Origin: a virus
Strand: one strand, 5' to 3'
Length of the DNA: 21,466 nt
Virus record (IMG/VR): IMGVR_UViG_3300030099_002868
Coordinates: 1 to 21,466 of that record
Part shown: positions 692-18,241 of the stretch, one piece after another
How positions within the stretch are numbered: the stretch's first letter is position 1
How the letters are laid out: each line of letters begins with the position of its first letter
Notes under the pieces: generated by a model
What the model saw: the letters and a program-made list of their open reading frames with translations, nothing else
What the model was told of the DNA's origin: nothing
The model's database searches: none
Made by a program: the position numbers and the translations under genes

Positions 692-1009
692 TTAATTTTG
701 TTGTTTTTTAAGGGTTTTCTTTAGTTCTTTTTTGATTGTTGGTAGAAGAAGGCTATCAAAGGCTCTAACAAGGGCTTCTTCTTTGTTTTCGTCGTCTATG
801 AGGTAGCTTAGACCTGAAATTGCTAGACAGGCGTGGAAGGCTTCGTGGAGGATGGTGTCGAGTTTATCGTTTATTTTTAAACCGCTTCTAATGGTGATGA
901 TTTTCTTATCGACGTCTAGGCTTCCGAAGTCCTCCAGGTCTTTTTTATAAACGATTTTATATTTATGGCCTCCTATGGTAATTTGACGTGGATTATAGGA
1001 TGTGTTCAT
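692..1009 (-). CDS. Small HExxH zinc metallopeptidase-like protein
   Basis: A 105 aa protein with a clear zinc-peptidase motif, HEAFH at residues 55-59. Helix residues E77/E78 downstream (NKEEALVRAF) could supply the third metal ligand. The spacing and size resemble the ImmA/IrrE or SprT-like minimal metallopeptidases found in phages. Its substrate cannot be told from sequence. The C-terminus is lysine-rich (KKELKKTLKK). It starts with ATG at 1009, 17 nt inside the end of the amidase gene, so the two are probably translationally coupled. It is the last gene of the late operon, with only non-coding DNA beyond it. T7 has no counterpart at this place. The motif is certain, the biological role is not. 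Confidence 0.75.
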   Translation of the reverse strand: MNTSYNPRQITIGGHKYKIVYKKDLEDFGSLDVDKKIITIRSGLKINDKLDTILHEAFHACLAISGLSYLIDDENKEEALVRAFDSLLLPTIKKELKKTLKKQQN

Positions 1010-1706
1010 CTGCCCAATTTTTGATGCCGTGCGCTAGGGCTTGGCTTAAAATGTGTTCACTGTTTGCGAAGGTGGTCCAATCTGGCTCCCAACAAGATCC
1101 GAAGAACGGCTCTGCGATCACGGCTGGCACATGTGTTTTACGCAGGAAGGTGGCCCCACGATCTCCTGTATCTCTCTTTTTGGTTCCCCGGTTCTTTATG
1201 AGAGGGAAATATTTCTGGCAGCCTCTGAGCAGATATTCTGCAAGTGTCATACCGATGCGTGAGGTTTTCCAGTAAAGCATCTCCATTCCGTTGGCTTTTG
1301 AGTTACTTGAGGCGTTGAAGTGCAGTTCGATGGCTATGGAGGCTTTTTGTTCCTTTAAGTGTTTTACGAGCCAGTTGATGGCTGACGTATAAGATCCGTA
1401 AGTGCCTCCATATTTATCTACAACGAAGCTACTGATGCCATATTCCTGGAGGTCTGACTTCAGGTATTCAGCGACCTTCTTATTGTAGGTCCACTCGTTG
1501 ATTCCTCCACATGATACAGCACCAGTATCGCCGGACCTGGAGTGTCCTACGCAGATAGCGACGTTAAGTTCATCTCTAGGTATACTGTTGGTTGGAAAGG
1601 GGATAGCAGTTGGTTGTTCTTTAAGCTTTTCTATTTCGTTGATGTGTTCAATGGCGTTACTGATGTGTTCTTGAGCCTTGAACAGGTCTTCTTTAATGTC
1701 CTTCAT
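993..1706 (-). CDS. N-acetylmuramoyl-L-alanine amidase (endolysin), Amidase_3 type
   Basis: A 237 aa protein that probably cleaves the amide bond between muramic acid and L-alanine in peptidoglycan to lyse the host. Residues 1-30 form a short charged helix. The catalytic domain starts near residue 47 (LNVAICVGHS). The expected zinc and catalytic residues of the Amidase_3 family are visible: H55 in GHS, E71 in NEW, H129 in ELHFNAS and E199 in AEPFF. There is no signal peptide, so a holin is expected to release it. The frame is open further upstream to 1772, but the ATG at 1706 has a good Shine-Dalgarno (AGAGGA) a few bases ahead and is the better start. T7 instead uses an unrelated-fold amidase in the early-middle region (gp3.5). 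Here the lysin sits after the large terminase. Confidence 0.9.
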   Translation of the reverse strand: MKDIKEDLFKAQEHISNAIEHINEIEKLKEQPTAIPFPTNSIPRDELNVAICVGHSRSGDTGAVSCGGINEWTYNKKVAEYLKSDLQEYGISSFVVDKYGGTYGSYTSAINWLVKHLKEQKASIAIELHFNASSNSKANGMEMLYWKTSRIGMTLAEYLLRGCQKYFPLIKNRGTKKRDTGDRGATFLRKTHVPAVIAEPFFGSCWEPDWTTFANSEHILSQALAHGIKNWADEHIL

Positions 1707-3467: not shown

Positions 3468-3692
3468 TTATTTGTTTCGAGATCTGTTCCTGGCTCTGCT
3501 TTGTATTCTCAGGTTTCTCCTGCTGTTGTTTAGAGGGTTGCGGTCTTTATGATCAATGTCTTTACCTTTAAGAGCTGCTTTACCTTTTGACTTAACAACA
3601 AGCCGTCTCGCTTTGTTTCTTCCGGCTCTTCGTTTCTTTTGAGTTTCGGAAGCGTGATAAGTTTTATATTCTTTTTTATAGTTTCTTCTCAT
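3468..3692 (-). CDS. Small HNH-type endonuclease-like protein
   Basis: A 74 aa, extremely basic protein with a compact HNH core: DIDHKDRNPLNN at 45-56 followed by NLR at 60-62 and an asparagine-rich end (N69). H48 fits the catalytic histidine. The final metal-binding histidine is replaced by asparagine (HNN type), and there is no cysteine zinc-binding pair. Its ATG overlaps the stop of the small terminase gene by one base (TAATG), and the large terminase follows 8 nt later, so the three are one translational unit. HNH proteins next to terminases take part in DNA cutting during packaging in some phages. Here it could do that, or be a homing-type remnant. Confidence 0.75.
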   Translation of the reverse strand: MRRNYKKEYKTYHASETQKKRRAGRNKARRLVVKSKGKAALKGKDIDHKDRNPLNNSRRNLRIQSRARNRSRNK

Positions 3693-3950: not shown

Positions 3951-4112
3951 TTATTTACCTTTCTTACGTATTTCTGATATTATCTTTAACACCATGTAAA
4001 CAAGCGTAGCAGCACCTACAAGCACTGCAAGAATCTCGTTTACGTCGTTGAGTGTTATGTTTGCTAGAAGACCTAAAACACCGACTGTAGGTGTCGTGAA
4101 TTGATTGTTCAT
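3951..4112 (-). CDS. 53 aa single-TM holin-like protein at the gp17.5 position
   Basis: A short ORF between tail fibre and small terminase: ATG at 4112, stop ending at 3951, 53 codons. It begins MNNQFTTPTVGVLG, has one hydrophobic segment from about residue 26 to 45 (EILAVLVGAATLVYMVLKII), and ends in a basic tail (EIRKKGK). T7 has its class II holin, gp17.5 (67 aa), in exactly this place, just before the small terminase. Size, topology and position all fit a holin or a lysis-timing membrane protein. The spacing is tight, 8 nt after the fibre stop and 4 nt before the terminase start, which supports a real gene. A second holin candidate lies at 17259-17441, so which one sets lysis timing is open. 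Confidence 0.7.
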   Translation of the reverse strand: MNNQFTTPTVGVLGLLANITLNDVNEILAVLVGAATLVYMVLKIISEIRKKGK

Positions 4113-4120
4113 TGTGTGCG

Positions 4121-5011
4121 TTATGAAGTAAAATAAAACCCTGTTAGATTAATTCTATCGTTAACCGCATAAGATATTCCTGCTGTGTCACAAACTACGT
4201 CACTTCCAGACTCATCAACGGATGCTGTAGGAATTTGATCAAAGGCTTCAAAAGAATGTGAAGAATTAAGAACAGACATTGACATGGTTCCTCGACTTAC
4301 AACACTAAAGGGCAAACCTGTTATTGTAAAAGATCCGTTACCTATGCCACTTGAAAGTACGATATGCGCTGAAATAAAAACAACTCTTCCTATTTTCGTG
4401 TAGTCCTTGTTAGAGTTCGGGAGATCAACCACACTGCTACCATTGATTATAATATTAGGTGACCAAGTTCCTGTTCTATAAAAGTGATTGGCATTTGGAT
4501 TGTTAAATATTCTAACTACTCCAGTTGCTGTCAGATCGCTTATACTCAAGTCTGTGCTTGAAGGGAGACTTACAGTTCCGCTGGCGCTTAGAGCGTCTAC
4601 GCTAGTAGTGCCGCCTAAAGACAAGTTAGTAACGTTTGTAAGTTGTGTTCCAACTCCCCCAGCGTCTTCAGAGACTTCTTGAGCAACAAACAGCCCTTGT
4701 TTATAAGCGGTATCCAGGTCATTTTCTGTCAGTCGCGCACCGTCAACAAAGTCTATTAAGGCGTTTGAAGACGTTGACCTATATACTCTTACTTTCTCAT
4801 AAGCAGATGGAGCTGTGCTAAGTGTGACTGTTTTTGCGTTTGTATCTCTTGAGGCTATTGTTAAATTTACTCTATTACCTCCTGATGTTTCTCCGAACGC
4901 GTTTATATCGTTTGCGTTTAGAACGTCTATGTTGCTAAAACTAAATGTCTTTTGTCCTAGTTGGTTGGCCCCGGTTCCTGATCCTGTATATTCAATGTAT
5001 GAATTTGGCAT
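4121..5011 (-). CDS. Tail fibre protein, T7 gp17-like N-terminal domain
   Basis: A 296 aa receptor-binding fibre. Residues 1 to about 115 form the T7-type tail-attachment domain (pattern of the phage_T7_tail family), including FSFSNIDVLNANDI and YEKVRVYRSTSSNALIDFVDG at 71-91 followed by LTENDLDTAYKQ. A short repetitive linker rich in Ser/Thr/Ala follows (120-165). The C-terminal part begins GTWSPNIIING (181) and contains YTKIGRVVFISAHIVL and FTITGLPF, a beta-rich motif common at phage fibre tips. It is much shorter than T7 gp17 (553 aa). It starts at an ATG about 30 nt after the gp16-like gene and forms the start of the fibre, holin-like and terminase block. Confidence 0.92.
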   Translation of the reverse strand: MPNSYIEYTGSGTGANQLGQKTFSFSNIDVLNANDINAFGETSGGNRVNLTIASRDTNAKTVTLSTAPSAYEKVRVYRSTSSNALIDFVDGARLTENDLDTAYKQGLFVAQEVSEDAGGVGTQLTNVTNLSLGGTTSVDALSASGTVSLPSSTDLSISDLTATGVVRIFNNPNANHFYRTGTWSPNIIINGSSVVDLPNSNKDYTKIGRVVFISAHIVLSSGIGNGSFTITGLPFSVVSRGTMSMSVLNSSHSFEAFDQIPTASVDESGSDVVCDTAGISYAVNDRINLTGFYFTS

Positions 5012-5040
5012 GGTTGATTGTAATGGTGTTTAAGTTTGTT

Positions 5041-8000
5041 TTATAATTTGTTTTGTAGATAATCACGTTTAGTCCTCATCGCCTCCTTATATTTTTCCTG
5101 TAGTTCAGGCGTTTCTTTCATCAACTCAAAGCGAGCTTTAGAGCTGTACCTATTAATAATTTCTGTGATTGCTTTTATCTTAGGAGACTTCATTGCTGTG
5201 CTGTCGTAGTAGTCTTCGTCAGCTAATTTTTGATAGCCTTCTTTTCCTATTAGATCTTTAAGTCTTTGCCTTAGAGTTTTGTTGCCTATCTTAACTGTTC
5301 CCCTCAGCTCCATCCATCGGTCATACGTGTCGTACTTGCCTTTTGTGGAAGCTATTTTTGTAAGATCAATGTTTGGAATGTTGAATAGTTTCTTAGACGG
5401 CATTTTAAATCCGTGTCCTAGTTTAGCGAGTTCGTTATCAACTGCGTCGTTTTTAACTTTTGAAACGTAAAACGGATTTAGAGTTGACCCAAAGATTCCT
5501 CCAGGGTTGTCTCTTGTGATGACTTCTCCTAGAACAGTTCTTTTAGGCGCAACGTCTTTTGACTTTACAGGAACCCTTCTAAGAGTGGCGTCGGCTACTG
5601 TCCGTGCTTCTCTAACAATTATTTCTGTGTCGGTGTTCTGAAGTTGGTTGGCTATGTTAGGAATAAAACCAGCGGCAACATCTTTGAACAACTTCGGTCC
5701 GTAGTACTCAGGTTCTCTAAGCACGTTGAACATGTTGTTGACACCTTTAAGGAATGTTTTGTCGGTAAGGTTTACAGCGTAAATCATCGCCATGTTAGCA
5801 AAGTTTATAGCTGCGTTTTCGTCGTTGTCGTCTGGAATCTCAAATTTCTGATAATCTCTAAAGTCAGCTGCCATAGTTAGCATTGTTGCCAGTGGGTCAA
5901 GACGTTGATAACTGATGTATTGTTCTCCTCCTGGGAACCATTCAGGCGTTTTAAATGAGTAAGGCTGCCATCCAGCTTTTCTAAGAATGTCTCTTTCCTG
6001 TCTGCTTTGAGGTCCAGCTCCTGTTATAAACTCTGCGTTGCTGTTTACGTATGCAAGAGTAAATGCAGTTGTAAGAACGCTTGTCGCAAGTCTTCCTTTA
6101 AGTTCTGCTTTTTCTTGCGGTGTTCCCTCGTCCATTATTTTTCTATAGCGCTCTCTATGTTTTTTAAGGCCATACATAGCCAGACCTATAGGAGTTCTCT
6201 CAAGTCCGAAGTTAACAATGTTTAAAGGTGTTTTAAGAAACGGAACAATAAATCTCAATTCCGGGTGCGCTTTAAGTATGGTTGCTCCTAAGTTACCCAT
6301 AGATTCCAAAGCTGGAACCTGGAGTTCGTTGTAGTTAGATGTAAAGGTTGATTTTCTAGTGTAACGCGCAGCTCTTTCGGCCATCGCTGATCTAGTCTCG
6401 TCAAACTTTTGATCTAGTATCTTTTCCATCGCTTCTTCGCGACCATCGCCATACTTTAAGCCTTGCTCGTCGAGTACTCTATTGGCTTCTAAAATTCTTC
6501 CCATTTCACTGTAGTAAGTGCCAGCTTTGTTCATGGTTTTGCCCATTTCTCTTTCTACATAAGCTGCAATAGCTTTTCCATTCTTGGCTATATTTGGGTC
6601 ACTCATTGCTTCCATAGCAAACTCAGTTCTTAGGTATTGTCTGAAAGCCATGTTCTTAAAGAACTCGTCGCCTCCAACAAGAAATCTTGAAGGCACTCGC
6701 GCTACGCCTCCAAAAAAGTTTACAGCTTGCCCAAGTGTTGATTCATTTGATAATCTAATATTACCGGGAAGAGGTATGTTTTCTGCTGTTATACTTCTCT
6801 CTTTAAGTCCGCTGTCTGATTCATCAAACTGTCTACTTCCACGCATCAATCTGGACTCGTCTGTTTTAAAGGCAATAGCGGCAGCTTTAAGAGCTTCAAA
6901 GAAAGTTTCAGAGCTGTACGCGTATTTAATAGTTGCTTTAGCTAGTTCTTTATCTCCGCTAAGTAAAGCTCCTATGCTCCTTTCTCCAACCATCAGCGTG
7001 TTAGTTAGCATGTTACCCATGACGTTCACTATCTGTGTAGTAGGTCCAGAAAGGATACTGTTGATCCAGAACTCAGTTGTTATGTCTAACATTTTTCTTC
7101 CGGCAGTCTTTCTAGTTATCCTCTTGAGGCTAGTTATTTTCTCAACGTCGTTAAGTGTGCTTGCGTTTACTAGTTGGCTTACAAGTTTCTTTATGTCTTT
7201 CTGACCGAGTCTTTCTTGAAGAAACGCAGTGTAATCCTTTATGTCTGCTCCAGGTTGTGGAGACTTTACTCGTTTAAATCTTTTGTTTTCAAACGCTCCT
7301 GTTACGCCTCTTTTAAGAACTTTACGGTAAAACAGTCCAGCGGAATCTCTGGTTGCTCTAATCGAGTTTACTCGCGCTGCTTCATCAAAAGCGGCAAGTG
7401 CGTCGGCTACTTCAATTGTTGCTTCGTTGCTATAAATGTCACCTTCCCACTTCTTAGCTACGTTAACAACATTCTCAGCTGACTTACGCATCACTAAGTA
7501 GGCTGAAGCATTTTCTGCAAGCCACTGTTCGTGTGTTGAAACATCTTCTCCTTCTCGTATCTTTTCCAAAGATACCTTTACGTTTCCTGATTTTTCCGCA
7601 ACAGTTTGTGTAATACCGTTTAAAACGTCAGCAGAGTATACTTTTCTTGCGTTTTTAAGTTTTGCTAGAGCTTGTCTTCCAGCAATCATAATTGCTAAAG
7701 TGTCTGCTGAAGAACTGGCTTCATCTGTGAGGTCTTCTATTGATTTAGCAATAACTTCGTAAGAAGCGTCAACAGCCTGGTCACCTCCTCTTGTTTTAGG
7801 AGTAGACATTTCAGAAGCGCCTTCCTCTGTTTCTTTAATGTTAAATTGAAGCTGGCCTGTTTCTCTTTCGTTAAATTCTTTTTGGTTTTGAGCTATACGT
7901 TGTTCAAGTTTATCTACTGCTTTTTTGTTGAGGGTTACTTGATCAACTTCATTCTCTCTAGTTTTAAAGGGACTGTCAACAAGCGCTGGATCTGCGTCTA

Positions 8001-15731: not shown

Positions 15732-16787
15732 TTATAAGGTAATTTCTACAGCGCACTCAGGTCTGAGGATTCCATGTCCAAGACCGTACTTTGCCAGGAA
15801 CAATGTACCTTGGTGGGCAATACTGTACTCTGACTGAGTAGTAAGGTCCAATAAGGAAACAGTTCCAACAGCTGCTGGGTGTCCTCCGATGATTGCAGTT
15901 TGTGAAAGATCACCGTTGTATCCTTCTCCATCATTGCCGCCACCGAACACGTCGTTCTTAACAGCAGAACTACCGTCACCAGTAGTTGTACTTGAGAAGT
16001 CTGATCTCACGTCTTTGATGTGCTGAGACTTGACAAGCTTAATGCCAGCTACCTGTGGTATCTGACCTGTAGCAACACTACCTACACCACCAGCATCACG
16101 ATTAAGAGCTAGTGATACTGCTGAGTTATCAGAAGTAATTAGCTTATAGTAAAGCTCTGGTGGTAACACTGCAAAACGCTGTCCGTCGTCTGGCACGTTC
16201 TTCTCGTCAAGCACTTGAGCCATCTCGAAGAGCGCACCAATAAGTTCAGGAGCGCTACTAAGAGTGCCATCTCCTCCTGATGCTCCGTCAATACTAGTAC
16301 CGCCGTCACCTCCGTTGATGTTAGCAGCAGATCTAGCAGCAGCTACCCAAGTCTTCATAACCGCAAGGTCATAACGCTTGGCAAGTGCCTTTCCGATCTC
16401 TTTTGAGTAGGTTGCTCGCATTGAATAATGAGCTTTTAGTTCGTCAAATTCAGCAATGAATGTTGAACTAATTAGCATGTCATCAATAAAGATAACCTTC
16501 TCGTTGTGCTTAATGTTACTGAGGTAACTATTGCCAGCGTCAAGAATGTCTTGACCAGGCTGGTAGTACTTAGCCTCGGCAATACCGCTTACAGGGAATT
16601 GAGCTGACTTTCCAGAAGTTATTGTTCTGGTAGTGTGCAAGTCCTTCATCACGTTTGTTTCGTCGAATGTGGTTAGGATCTCGTTAGAGAATACTTTAAG
16701 AAATAAAGCATCAGCATCGCCTGCGCTGCCGGTTGACACGTTATGCGACTGTCCTATCCTTGATGGATTTGTATCTCCATTAGCCAT
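15732..16787 (-). CDS. Major capsid protein, T7 gp10-like
   Basis: A 351 aa coat protein with the HK97-type fold expected for the family; T7 gp10A is 345 aa. Recognisable regions are the N-arm with GDADALFLKVFSNEILTTF (about 23-41), TTRTITSGKSAQFPVSG, then FIDDMLISSTFIAEFDELKAHY and ISKEIGKALA-like helix ATYSKEIGKALAKRYDLAVM. The surface loop is Gly/Asp-rich (NINGGDGGTSIDGASGGDGT). The gene has a 195 nt leader with AAAGGA upstream of the ATG, and a strong terminator follows it, so it is a separate high-expression unit. The late part of the gene has a second open frame, but it stops before the capsid stop, so it does not make a T7-like longer 10B form. Confidence 0.96.
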   Translation of the reverse strand: MANGDTNPSRIGQSHNVSTGSAGDADALFLKVFSNEILTTFDETNVMKDLHTTRTITSGKSAQFPVSGIAEAKYYQPGQDILDAGNSYLSNIKHNEKVIFIDDMLISSTFIAEFDELKAHYSMRATYSKEIGKALAKRYDLAVMKTWVAAARSAANINGGDGGTSIDGASGGDGTLSSAPELIGALFEMAQVLDEKNVPDDGQRFAVLPPELYYKLITSDNSAVSLALNRDAGGVGSVATGQIPQVAGIKLVKSQHIKDVRSDFSSTTTGDGSSAVKNDVFGGGNDGEGYNGDLSQTAIIGGHPAAVGTVSLLDLTTQSEYSIAHQGTLFLAKYGLGHGILRPECAVEITL

Positions 16788-16982
16788 AATTTAATATGTC
16801 CTTTCTATTTTATTTATTGTTTGTTGTTTATTAGTTTGGGTTGAACAACTCACTTAATGAATAAAACAAAAAGACCTATGAGTGTTTACTTAGCTTAGTT
16901 GTCCCTCGCAAGGGGCTAAACATAAAACAAACTTTCGGTTGCTTTTGTTGTGTGTTCTTCTGTGTGGTTGAAATCTTTAAAA
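16788..16982 (-). promoter_or_regulatory. Capsid gene leader region, probable late promoter location
   Basis: A 195 nt gene-free stretch ahead of the capsid gene, the second longest in the window. It is AT-rich, with an A/C-rich run (minus strand) near the capsid start and the AAAGGA Shine-Dalgarno just before it. It holds a small hairpin (CCCT/AGGG, 16903-16914) and the 22-nt element shared with the left end of the window. T7 has its strong phi10 promoter in this place. No convincing sigma-70 -35/-10 pair was found. Confidence 0.5.
16891..16912 (-). promoter_or_regulatory. Candidate phage promoter/regulatory element, copy A
   Basis: This element agrees with 484-502 at 17 of 19 bases after removing three bases that are extra in this copy. 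The shared core is TGTCCCTC on the plus strand (16900-16907). It is about 100-120 nt upstream of the capsid start. The small CCCT/AGGG hairpin overlapping it is not kept in the other copy, so the conservation appears to be of sequence rather than RNA fold. A phage RNA polymerase promoter is the preferred reading. An RNA processing site or a protein-binding site are alternatives. Confidence 0.4.
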
Positions 16983-17180
16983 TTATCTTCGATGCTCCAA
17001 ATCATTTACGTACTTTAGGATCTCTCCTATTGTTTCCTTTTCTGGAGCGCTGAACGAATGGGCTTTCAGTTTCGAGAGAAAATGGGGAATCTTGCTCTGA
17101 GGCGGCTGTATCGTCTTGCAGCCAGTCGTCAATAAGATCAATGTTGCGATTGCGACTACGACTATATGCCTCCTTTTCAT
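16983..17180 (-). CDS. Lipoprotein resembling outer-membrane spanin (Rz1-like)
   Basis: A 65 aa protein with a lipoprotein signal: basic start MKRR, hydrophobic run IVVVAIATLILL (6-17), then TTGC with the acylated cysteine at C21. The -3 residue is Thr rather than Leu, so the lipobox is imperfect. The mature part begins CKTIQPPQSKIP, with prolines as in Rz1 proteins, and is about 45 residues long. Most of the gene (179 nt) lies inside the preceding 84 aa gene in another frame, the usual nested arrangement of Rz/Rz1 pairs. O-spanins join the outer membrane to the i-spanin and finish lysis. It starts at an ATG without a strong Shine-Dalgarno and lies just before the capsid leader. Confidence 0.65.
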   Translation of the reverse strand: MKRRHIVVVAIATLILLTTGCKTIQPPQSKIPHFLSKLKAHSFSAPEKETIGEILKYVNDLEHRR

Positions 17181-17256
17181 AAGCTTCGACTATTTTAAAA
17201 AAGTACTCGCAGATTTTTGGAAAATTGAAAAGAAAACCTACGAGTAACTTGATCAT
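17002..17256 (-). CDS. Small protein overlapping the lipoprotein; possible inner spanin
   Basis: An 84 aa protein with a hydrophobic, aromatic N-terminus (MIKLLVGFLFNFPKICEYFF, 1-20) followed by a charged region (AYEKEAYSRSRNRNIDLIDDWL) and a low-complexity basic end. It has AAAGGA as Shine-Dalgarno inside the end of the upstream gene. The N-terminus could anchor in the inner membrane as expected for an i-spanin, but the membrane segment is interrupted by Pro and Lys, and no clear coiled coil is seen. It is short compared with T7 gp18.5 (143 aa). Its C-terminal sequence overlaps the lipoprotein frame and looks constrained by it. Spanin partner is the best guess; an unrelated small virion or membrane protein remains possible. 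Confidence 0.5.
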   Translation of the reverse strand: MIKLLVGFLFNFPKICEYFFKIVEAYEKEAYSRSRNRNIDLIDDWLQDDTAASEQDSPFSLETESPFVQRSRKGNNRRDPKVRK

Positions 17257-17258
17257 AA

Positions 17259-17441
17259 TTATTCCTTTGGTTTTGCTTTTCCGACGTTAAGAGCAAGCCA
17301 GTTTATAAGTTTAAGGGCTACGCCTGTAATTTTGTTATCAGCTTTATTTGGTGTCATTGCCGATATAAGACTAGCAGCAGTGACAACAGCAGTAGCAATT
17401 GCTATAAGCTGTTCTTTATTGTCAATAATGTACGTTATCAT
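17259..17441 (-). CDS. 60 aa holin-like membrane protein
   Basis: A 60 aa protein with one clear hydrophobic helix (LIAIATAVVTAASLISAM, about 12-29), a short linker MTPNKADNKITG, a second weaker amphipathic helix (VALKLINWLALNV) and a lysine-rich end (GKAKPKE). This pattern (TM, TPNxxDDK-like linker, LxxLALN helix) resembles small phage proteins often labelled holins. It is followed by the spanin-like pair 2 nt later, which strengthens the lysis reading. It follows the scaffold gene by 8 nt and has the A/T leader ATAAAAATT before the ATG. It could also be a capsid-associated membrane protein. Confidence 0.65.
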   Translation of the reverse strand: MITYIIDNKEQLIAIATAVVTAASLISAMTPNKADNKITGVALKLINWLALNVGKAKPKE

Positions 17442-17449
17442 AATTTTTA

Positions 17450-18241
17450 TTATACCCTTGTTGATACTGCCAAGCGTCTTTCGACTTCTTCACGGTAGGC
17501 AGGATCTGTTTCATATCGTCTGTCTTTCATTGCTTCGACTACTTGAGCGTTACTATTAAAAGGCTGGACCGCAGCTCCTGAAGTTTGTCCTTGAGCTATG
17601 TTTATTGGTCCGCTACCAGACTCAGATCTGTACCGGGCATACAACCCTTTAACAGCTAACTTCGCAGCTTCAGGTGAAGACTCAGAAACTATTGTATCAA
17701 AAGTATCTATCTCATCAGCTGGCAAATATTCTGAGGCCCACTGAATCATAGCGTCATAGTTTTCTTGTCCTCCTATGCTGTTAGTAATATCTGCAACTTC
17801 AGACTCCATTGATGCTTCTTGACCGCGAACATAAGCCTCAACAAATTCTCTAGGTATGCCGTTTTCTTCAAGAGCTTTATAGTTTTCTTCAGATAGCTCT
17901 CCGTCGTTGTAAAAGGCATCACTAGCGTTTTGAATTGCTTGAGAAACATTAGAGTCCTGCGCTAGGTTTTCTTCAGTTGCTTGCTCTTGTTGTTTTGTTT
18001 CTCCAAGTTTCTTTTCTAAATTTTCATAAGCAACAACAAGATCTTCTTGGCTTTTAAATTTGCCTAAGATTAAATCTTGTTCTTGTTGCTGTGGTTCAAC
18101 ATTTTGAGGCTGCTGTTGTGCCTCTTGTCCAGAAGGGTTTTGCTGTGTTTGTTGAGCAGCTTCTTGTTGAGCTAATTGCTCCTCCAGGCTTATGTTCCCC
18201 TCTTCGGTTTTTTGTTTCTCGTTTACTATGTATTGTTCCAT
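17450..18241 (-). CDS. Capsid assembly scaffolding protein, T7 gp9-like
   Basis: A 263 aa acidic protein (T7 gp9 is 307 aa) between portal and capsid genes, the standard scaffold position. The first 65 residues are Gln/Glu-rich and disordered (QQEAAQQTQQNPSGQEAQQQ). Then comes the family-like segment LILGKFKSQEDLVVAYENLEKK, a helical middle, and a C-terminus with charged helices (DPAYREEVERRLA) of the kind that bind the coat protein. It would be lost from the mature head. The frame can be opened upstream at a TTG (18268), which overlaps the portal end; the ATG at 18241 is preferred. Confidence 0.92.
   Translation of the reverse strand: MEQYIVNEKQKTEEGNISLEEQLAQQEAAQQTQQNPSGQEAQQQPQNVEPQQQEQDLILGKFKSQEDLVVAYENLEKKLGETKQQEQATEENLAQDSNVSQAIQNASDAFYNDGELSEENYKALEENGIPREFVEAYVRGQEASMESEVADITNSIGGQENYDAMIQWASEYLPADEIDTFDTIVSESSPEAAKLAVKGLYARYRSESGSGPINIAQGQTSGAAVQPFNSNAQVVEAMKDRRYETDPAYREEVERRLAVSTRV

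Follow-up and report, generated by a model that had tools for sequence, protein, structure and literature searches.

What are three small genes doing between the scaffold and the capsid gene of a T7-like phage? The window, a virus record analysed over all of its 21,466 bases, comes from a marine T7-like phage with its head-tail genes on the minus strand; among named relatives, the uncultured Ayaqvirus AP013544 is the closest in capsid protein (61.7% identity). Between the T7-type scaffold gene (17450-18241, minus; phrog_1052, E = 5.9e-49; PF05396, 1.1e-18) and the major capsid gene (15732-16787, minus; phrog_267, 3.7e-70) it carries, on the same strand and each with an ATG start, genes for a 60-aa protein with one transmembrane (TM) segment (h60; 17259-17441), an 84-aa candidate i-spanin (17002-17256) and a 65-aa candidate o-spanin lipoprotein (16983-17180). 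T7 has no gene between genes 9 and 10, only 93 nt with the promoter phi10, which bears out the sequence-only reading that these genes sit where T7 has none. That reading also took the block for a lysis cluster with a spanin-like overlapping pair. Here, the overlapping frame and the lipobox cysteine prove conserved and relatives carry an endolysin in the same slot, and we consider it quite probable that the block is a phage lysis cassette encoding a two-component spanin and a lysis-associated membrane protein. To judge from their sequences, the last two genes likely specify a spanin that represents a new sequence family and is unusually placed.

The two genes share 179 nt (17002-17180, minus), over which the 65-aa frame runs at +1 to the 84-aa frame, and the lipoprotein gene ends 19 nt past the stop of its partner. 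The lipoprotein had been described as nested; its gene is in fact overlapped in the sense used for spanins, starting inside the i-spanin gene and ending beyond it, and the embedded architecture of T7 and lambda, absent from the window, is found in 13 of the family's 70 distinct pairs. The 84-aa protein consists of an N-terminal hydrophobic helix with a conserved F-P-[KR] motif, a charged helix to residue 50 and a disordered tail encoded in the overlap. Single-chain AlphaFold models, of modest confidence and with one or two helices that would match any fold, give one helix (2-50) and a disordered tail for the 84-aa protein (mean pLDDT 67), and a short linker followed by helices 31-39 and 45-64 for the lipoprotein (mean pLDDT 75).

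The N-terminus of the lipoprotein is hydrophobic, its best hydrophobic window (start 6) coinciding with the predicted signal peptide (17121-17180, minus), which is followed by the codon of the candidate lipidated Cys21 (17118-17120, minus). In all 67 complete distinct members of the family (one more locus is truncated), the lipobox carries the residues GC; at position -3, the strict L/V/I residue is rare and most members have M or T. Near-invariant residues extend through the mature part of the protein (P32, L38, F43, E47, K48, T50, I51, E53, L55, Y57, L61, and E62). The C-terminal helix 45-64 is charged, which sets the protein apart from unimolecular spanins with their C-terminal TM segment. 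No significant match of the lipoprotein to the curated spanin families of Pfam and PHROGs was found (best E values 0.005-0.05), nor any spanin match in NCBIfam; the weak matches include the Rz-like spanin family phrog_456 (E = 0.0073; three of 16 members at E ≤ 0.1) and LysC PF23793 (E = 0.052, below the cut-off; four of 16 members). A genome-level search with phrog_456 was dropped as evidence, as at E ≤ 1 it also matched 13 of the 14 unrelated genomes that served as controls. Among named phages searched with the o-spanin of a distant relative, AP013544 is the only match. The window pair has no periplasmic cysteine, and the same holds for 22 of 30 chosen representatives of the family; periplasmic cysteines are found in 507 of 528 published spanin pairs (PMC6139136) and are thus common rather than defining.

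The main doubt about the spanin reading is the poor TM segment of the 84-aa protein. Its N-terminal hydropathy is 1.23, compared with 1.35 for T7 gp18.5, 2.63 for lambda Rz, and 3.12 for P2 LysB, and on a second insertion scale it performs worse than the T7 i-spanin (8.9 versus 4.7). This N-terminus contains the residues Pro13, Lys14, Glu17, and Lys21, and searches of Pfam, PHROGs, and NCBIfam returned nothing usable for the protein. A weak but sufficient anchor is nevertheless conceivable, given that the TM segment of lambda Rz can be replaced by an artificial one (PMC5295617). In favor of the spanin reading, the overlapped +1 architecture and the summed periplasmic lengths, 69-138 residues among the 30 representatives and about 107 for the window pair, agree with what is published for spanins (62-300 residues; PMC6139136).

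The 60-aa protein has the better TM segment, with a maximum 19-residue hydropathy of 2.03, and could alternatively be the inner-membrane partner of a true o-spanin lipoprotein, leaving the 84-aa protein as a peripheral amphipathic helix protein that regulates the holin or destabilizes the membrane. Such an arrangement would suit the weak N-terminal helix with its proline and lysine, the prediction of a single helix 2-50, and the small size of the shortest partner homologs (49-52 aa), which makes the helix the core of the partner. We nevertheless regard it as unlikely, because the invariable overlap partner of the o-spanin is the 84-aa frame and not the 60-aa one (70 of 70 distinct pairs), because the 60-aa family occurs without this o-spanin in 41 of 91 loci (the viral loci being the best 80 of 497), and because the positively charged C-terminus of the 60-aa protein suggests, from sequence, a C-in orientation. 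The 84-aa protein is thus kept as the candidate i-spanin.

The position of the block between scaffold and capsid genes might instead point to virion-assembly accessories, cofactors of scaffold or capsid, and the location recurs: among 91 loci of the 60-aa family (the best 80 of 497 viral loci, 10 genome-contig loci, and the Salicola phage CGphi29), a model of the o-spanin finds the lipoprotein family downstream in 50, 41 of which are flanked by scaffold and capsid. The same 91 loci, with the viral ones again limited to the best 80 of 497, contain a homolog of the window's amidase within 1.6 kb downstream in 41 cases; both families are found in 18 loci (so that Amidase_3 accompanies 18 of the 50 loci with this o-spanin), the amidase alone in 23, the o-spanin alone in 32, and neither in 18. 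Many of these contigs are near-copies, and the counts are of records rather than independent events. Pfam confirms Amidase_3 in all three examples tested. Five relatives (L127, L134, L136, L145, and L157) arrange their genes as scaffold, 60-aa protein, a partner of 49-61 aa, the overlapping lipoprotein, amidase, and capsid, with one or two extra small genes in some blocks, and the amidase thereby occupies the same scaffold-capsid slot as the window's cassette. As a control, 59 capsid relatives of lower identity were inspected, 35 of which extend 1.8 kb or more upstream of the capsid gene; none of these has an o-spanin of this family or such an amidase there. The co-location with an amidase in relatives, together with the CGphi29 trio, which stands beside a holin and an M23 peptidase endolysin, favors lysis over head assembly, and with the lipoprotein signal added, a role as virion-assembly accessories appears very unlikely.

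Two further lineages of the 60-aa family were observed. In the second (L123, L130, L149, and L154, around 4001-5243), the 60-aa protein is accompanied by a helix protein of 71-72 aa (96 aa as called in L123) that is overlapped by an unrelated lipoprotein, as well as by a one-TM protein of 55-57 aa and an Amidase_3; this is probably another spanin-like pair. In the third (L171, L175, and L183), the 60-aa family precedes another protein of 60 aa, which has a hydrophobic stretch at its C-terminal end, and neither an amidase nor an o-spanin of these families is nearby.

The endolysin of the window itself is distant from the cassette, as had been noted from the sequence: the gene at 993-1706 (minus) encodes a genuine Amidase_3 (PF01520, 7.5e-21), lies downstream of the large terminase gene as in AP013544, about 15 kb from the cassette, and has homologs in 13 of 13 related records. 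The 105-aa protein encoded after it (692-1009, minus) shows weak metalloprotease matches (phrog_87, E = 0.0011) and a match to phrog_1233 (3.5e-10).

The 60-aa protein had been called holin-like. Its single TM segment and its place at the head of the cassette, also seen in relatives, agree with this; however, it has no holin family match, its family phrog_9685 (E = 6.9e-8) is one of unknown function, and a separate holin-like gene coexists with it in the window, in CGphi29 (an HP1 holin), and in L158. In the window this is a gene for a 53-aa one-TM protein (3951-4112, minus), which occupies the position of the T7 holin gp17.5 between the tail fibre and small terminase (TerS) genes, has a hydropathy of 2.45 and a weak match to the holin family phrog_920 (E = 0.016), and is kept in 11 of 13 related records. 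This 53-aa protein is the likelier holin; the 60-aa protein often accompanies lysis genes and may be a second holin, an antiholin, or an accessory. In L158, a homolog of the 53-aa holin candidate (L158:305-463) directly precedes the 60-aa gene, both within one cassette.

Assuming a host with a Gram-negative envelope, the components could be ordered as follows. The holin, most likely the 53-aa protein, would release the amidase endolysin, which would degrade the wall, with the 60-aa protein possibly acting as a second holin-type or antiholin component; this division of labor between the two small membrane proteins is a proposal. After loss of the wall, the 84-aa protein, if anchored in the inner membrane, and the lipoprotein, if lipidated at Cys21 and held in the outer membrane, would meet in the periplasm to form a complex bridging both membranes. 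The bridged pair would then fuse or tear the outer membrane.

The conservation of the pair was followed in relatives whose capsid proteins are 48 to 100% identical. IMG/VR scans gave 26 loci with the 84-aa query, 10 with the 65-aa query, and 79 with the capsid query; after selection of loci with all three small proteins and removal of identical regions, 35 distinct regions were obtained. All three small-protein frames are retained in each of the 35, and in every one the lipoprotein frame is open, begins with ATG, lies in the +1 register, and has a cysteine near residue 21. The comparison with relatives that the earlier reading had proposed for frames and cysteine thus yields no loss in 35 distinct regions. 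When the codons of 12 pairs were reshuffled synonymously, the lipoprotein frame stayed open in 2-13% of trials with the 84-aa protein held fixed, and the partner frame in 0.2-1.2% with the lipoprotein held fixed, so neither frame comes free with the other. Variability by codon position, computed for 21 of the 35 regions, indicates normal constraint ahead of the overlap, dominance of the 84-aa frame in the signal-peptide half of the lipoprotein gene, and dominance of the lipoprotein frame in the second half, where variation peaks at the lipoprotein's own third codon positions, the pattern of a coding frame. Both overlapping frames are under constraint. That the lipoprotein frame could be a functionless by-product of the 84-aa gene is scarcely credible: two-frame overlaps do arise by chance, as the trials with an open frame illustrate, but the start, frame, and cysteine are kept in all 35 regions, the third positions of the mature half behave as coding, and the o-spanin holds its length (62-72 aa) while its partner ranges from 49 to 111 aa.

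For the window's clade, a contrast in T-ending codons led to rejection of the idea that the C-terminal tail of the partner merely reads through the o-spanin gene in a passive way. T is the last base in three of the 254 o-spanin codons of this clade that could produce a stop in the partner frame; each of the three coincides with the stop of the partner itself (0 of 253 strictly inside), and the figure for other codons is 173 of 570. In short-partner relatives, past the partner's stop, stop-making o-spanin codons end in T in 53 of 105 cases. Because an open frame by definition lacks such codons and the sequences share ancestry, the contrast, and not a p-value, is the evidence. Over the same stretch, the first codon positions of the o-spanin gene are less variable than the second in the window's clade (0.161 versus 0.337), and the short-partner records show the reverse (0.885 versus 0.549). 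The partner tail in the window's clade is itself under selection.

Across the 70 distinct pairs, 57 are overlapped and 13 embedded, with none separated and none without a partner. Relative to the stop of the partner, the o-spanin gene ends anywhere between 115 nt downstream and 53 nt upstream. The starts of some embedded partners (TTG or GTG) were chosen by script, which leaves their lengths approximate but does not touch the stops, by which embedding is defined. With the clustering thresholds as published (40% identity across 40% of the periplasmic portion), applied to the 30 representatives, 143 of 176 embedded-overlapped comparisons pass for the o-spanin and 35 of 176 for the partner, and single linkage joins all 30. 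One spanin family thus holds both overlapped and embedded pairs. Kongari et al. 2018 (PMC6139136) saw embedded and other architectures combined in none of their spanin families and could offer the origin of embedding only as conjecture; a large-scale spanin classification (PMC12596118) likewise shows no embedded-overlapped mixture in its accessible part.

In a midpoint-rooted capsid tree of 51 of the 63 labelled records (12 lacking a full capsid were left out), the nine embedded records form one clade with support 99/99, and their sister records are overlapped with short partners; the tree requires three label changes for short partners and two for the window's type. This fits a short overlap as the older state, although the root is a midpoint and the cassette may have evolved separately. 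The partners of all eight embedded representatives have two or three C-terminal cysteines, and those of the 22 overlapped ones have none, as would be expected of a periplasmic C-terminus in the embedded i-spanin frame. We consider it an even chance that one spanin family is seen here while passing from one gene architecture to another. If so, embedded spanins can arise from overlapped ones via C-terminal lengthening of the i-spanin. The mixed family, with its graded overlaps in many genomes, makes the direction and selective value of embedding testable.

One counterpart of the window pair is gp18.5/gp18.7 of T7, likewise a lipoprotein gene overlapping the gene of an i-spanin with a weak TM segment, in a virus of the same type. 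The T7 pair, however, is of the fully embedded kind, with an i-spanin of 143 aa, and is located between the small and large terminase genes, whereas the window pair lies between scaffold and capsid and is overlapped, with an i-spanin of 84 aa; no sequence match between the two was found. The window's counterpart of the T7 slot between the terminase genes is taken up by a 74-aa ORF (3468-3692), which we tentatively take to encode an HNH-type endonuclease. In LysB/LysC of P2, as in other overlapped two-component spanins (PMC6139136), the o-spanin gene likewise begins within the i-spanin gene and extends past its end, but the P2 pair comes after the endolysin in a lysis cassette, and LysB has 141 aa and a strong TM segment.

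A further counterpart is CGphi29 (SLPG_00043-00045), with the same three-gene order, a homolog of the 60-aa protein, a 71-aa protein, and an overlapped lipoprotein, SLPG_00045, annotated as an Rz-like spanin (phrog_8971, E = 4e-11). The CGphi29 trio belongs to another genome type, away from scaffold and capsid genes, and its o-spanin is just 16% identical to that of the window. The true start of SLPG_00045 (L002:4276-4494) is probably 48 nt upstream of the annotated one, which restores a signal peptide. AP013544 (MedDCM-OCT-S45-C18) also carries its cassette between scaffold and capsid; its o-spanin (L001:4074-4277) is instead fully embedded in a 104-aa partner and is unannotated, an example of how a lipoprotein gene hiding in another frame causes spanins to be missed in many phages. 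In some T7-like marine phages, lysis genes are worth seeking in the interval between scaffold and capsid.

T4, too, has its spanin genes (PseT.3/PseT.2) at a distance from holin and endolysin; there the two genes are separated and the o-spanin has essential cysteines (PMC6139136). In the partial texts available, cobaviruses are described with lysis genes ahead of internal virion proteins (PMC6775973), and LUZ100 as having no recognised spanin (PMC10134795). Searches of the open-access literature turned up neither an account of this cassette nor one of a spanin family that mixes embedded and overlapped pairs.

The earlier reading suggested that a place just ahead of the capsid gene would tie the lysis proteins to peak late transcription; no promoter was identified. 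Between the o-spanin gene and the capsid gene lies a noncoding stretch of 195 nt (16788-16982, minus) that is strongly conserved. Readings of this stretch as a terminator or a promoter were rejected: its fold is not unusual (z = -1.19), and a promoter pattern scan performed no better than on shuffles. It contains an invariant element, CCCCTTGCGAGGGA[CT]AA (16895-16915), which is present as a single copy in nine of 11 records searched, with one further record having two sites near its ends and one having none; being mostly single-copy, the element is unlike a repeated phage-polymerase promoter. Since the stretch parts the cassette from the capsid gene, a capsid-proximal promoter of the phi10 kind would leave the cassette upstream.
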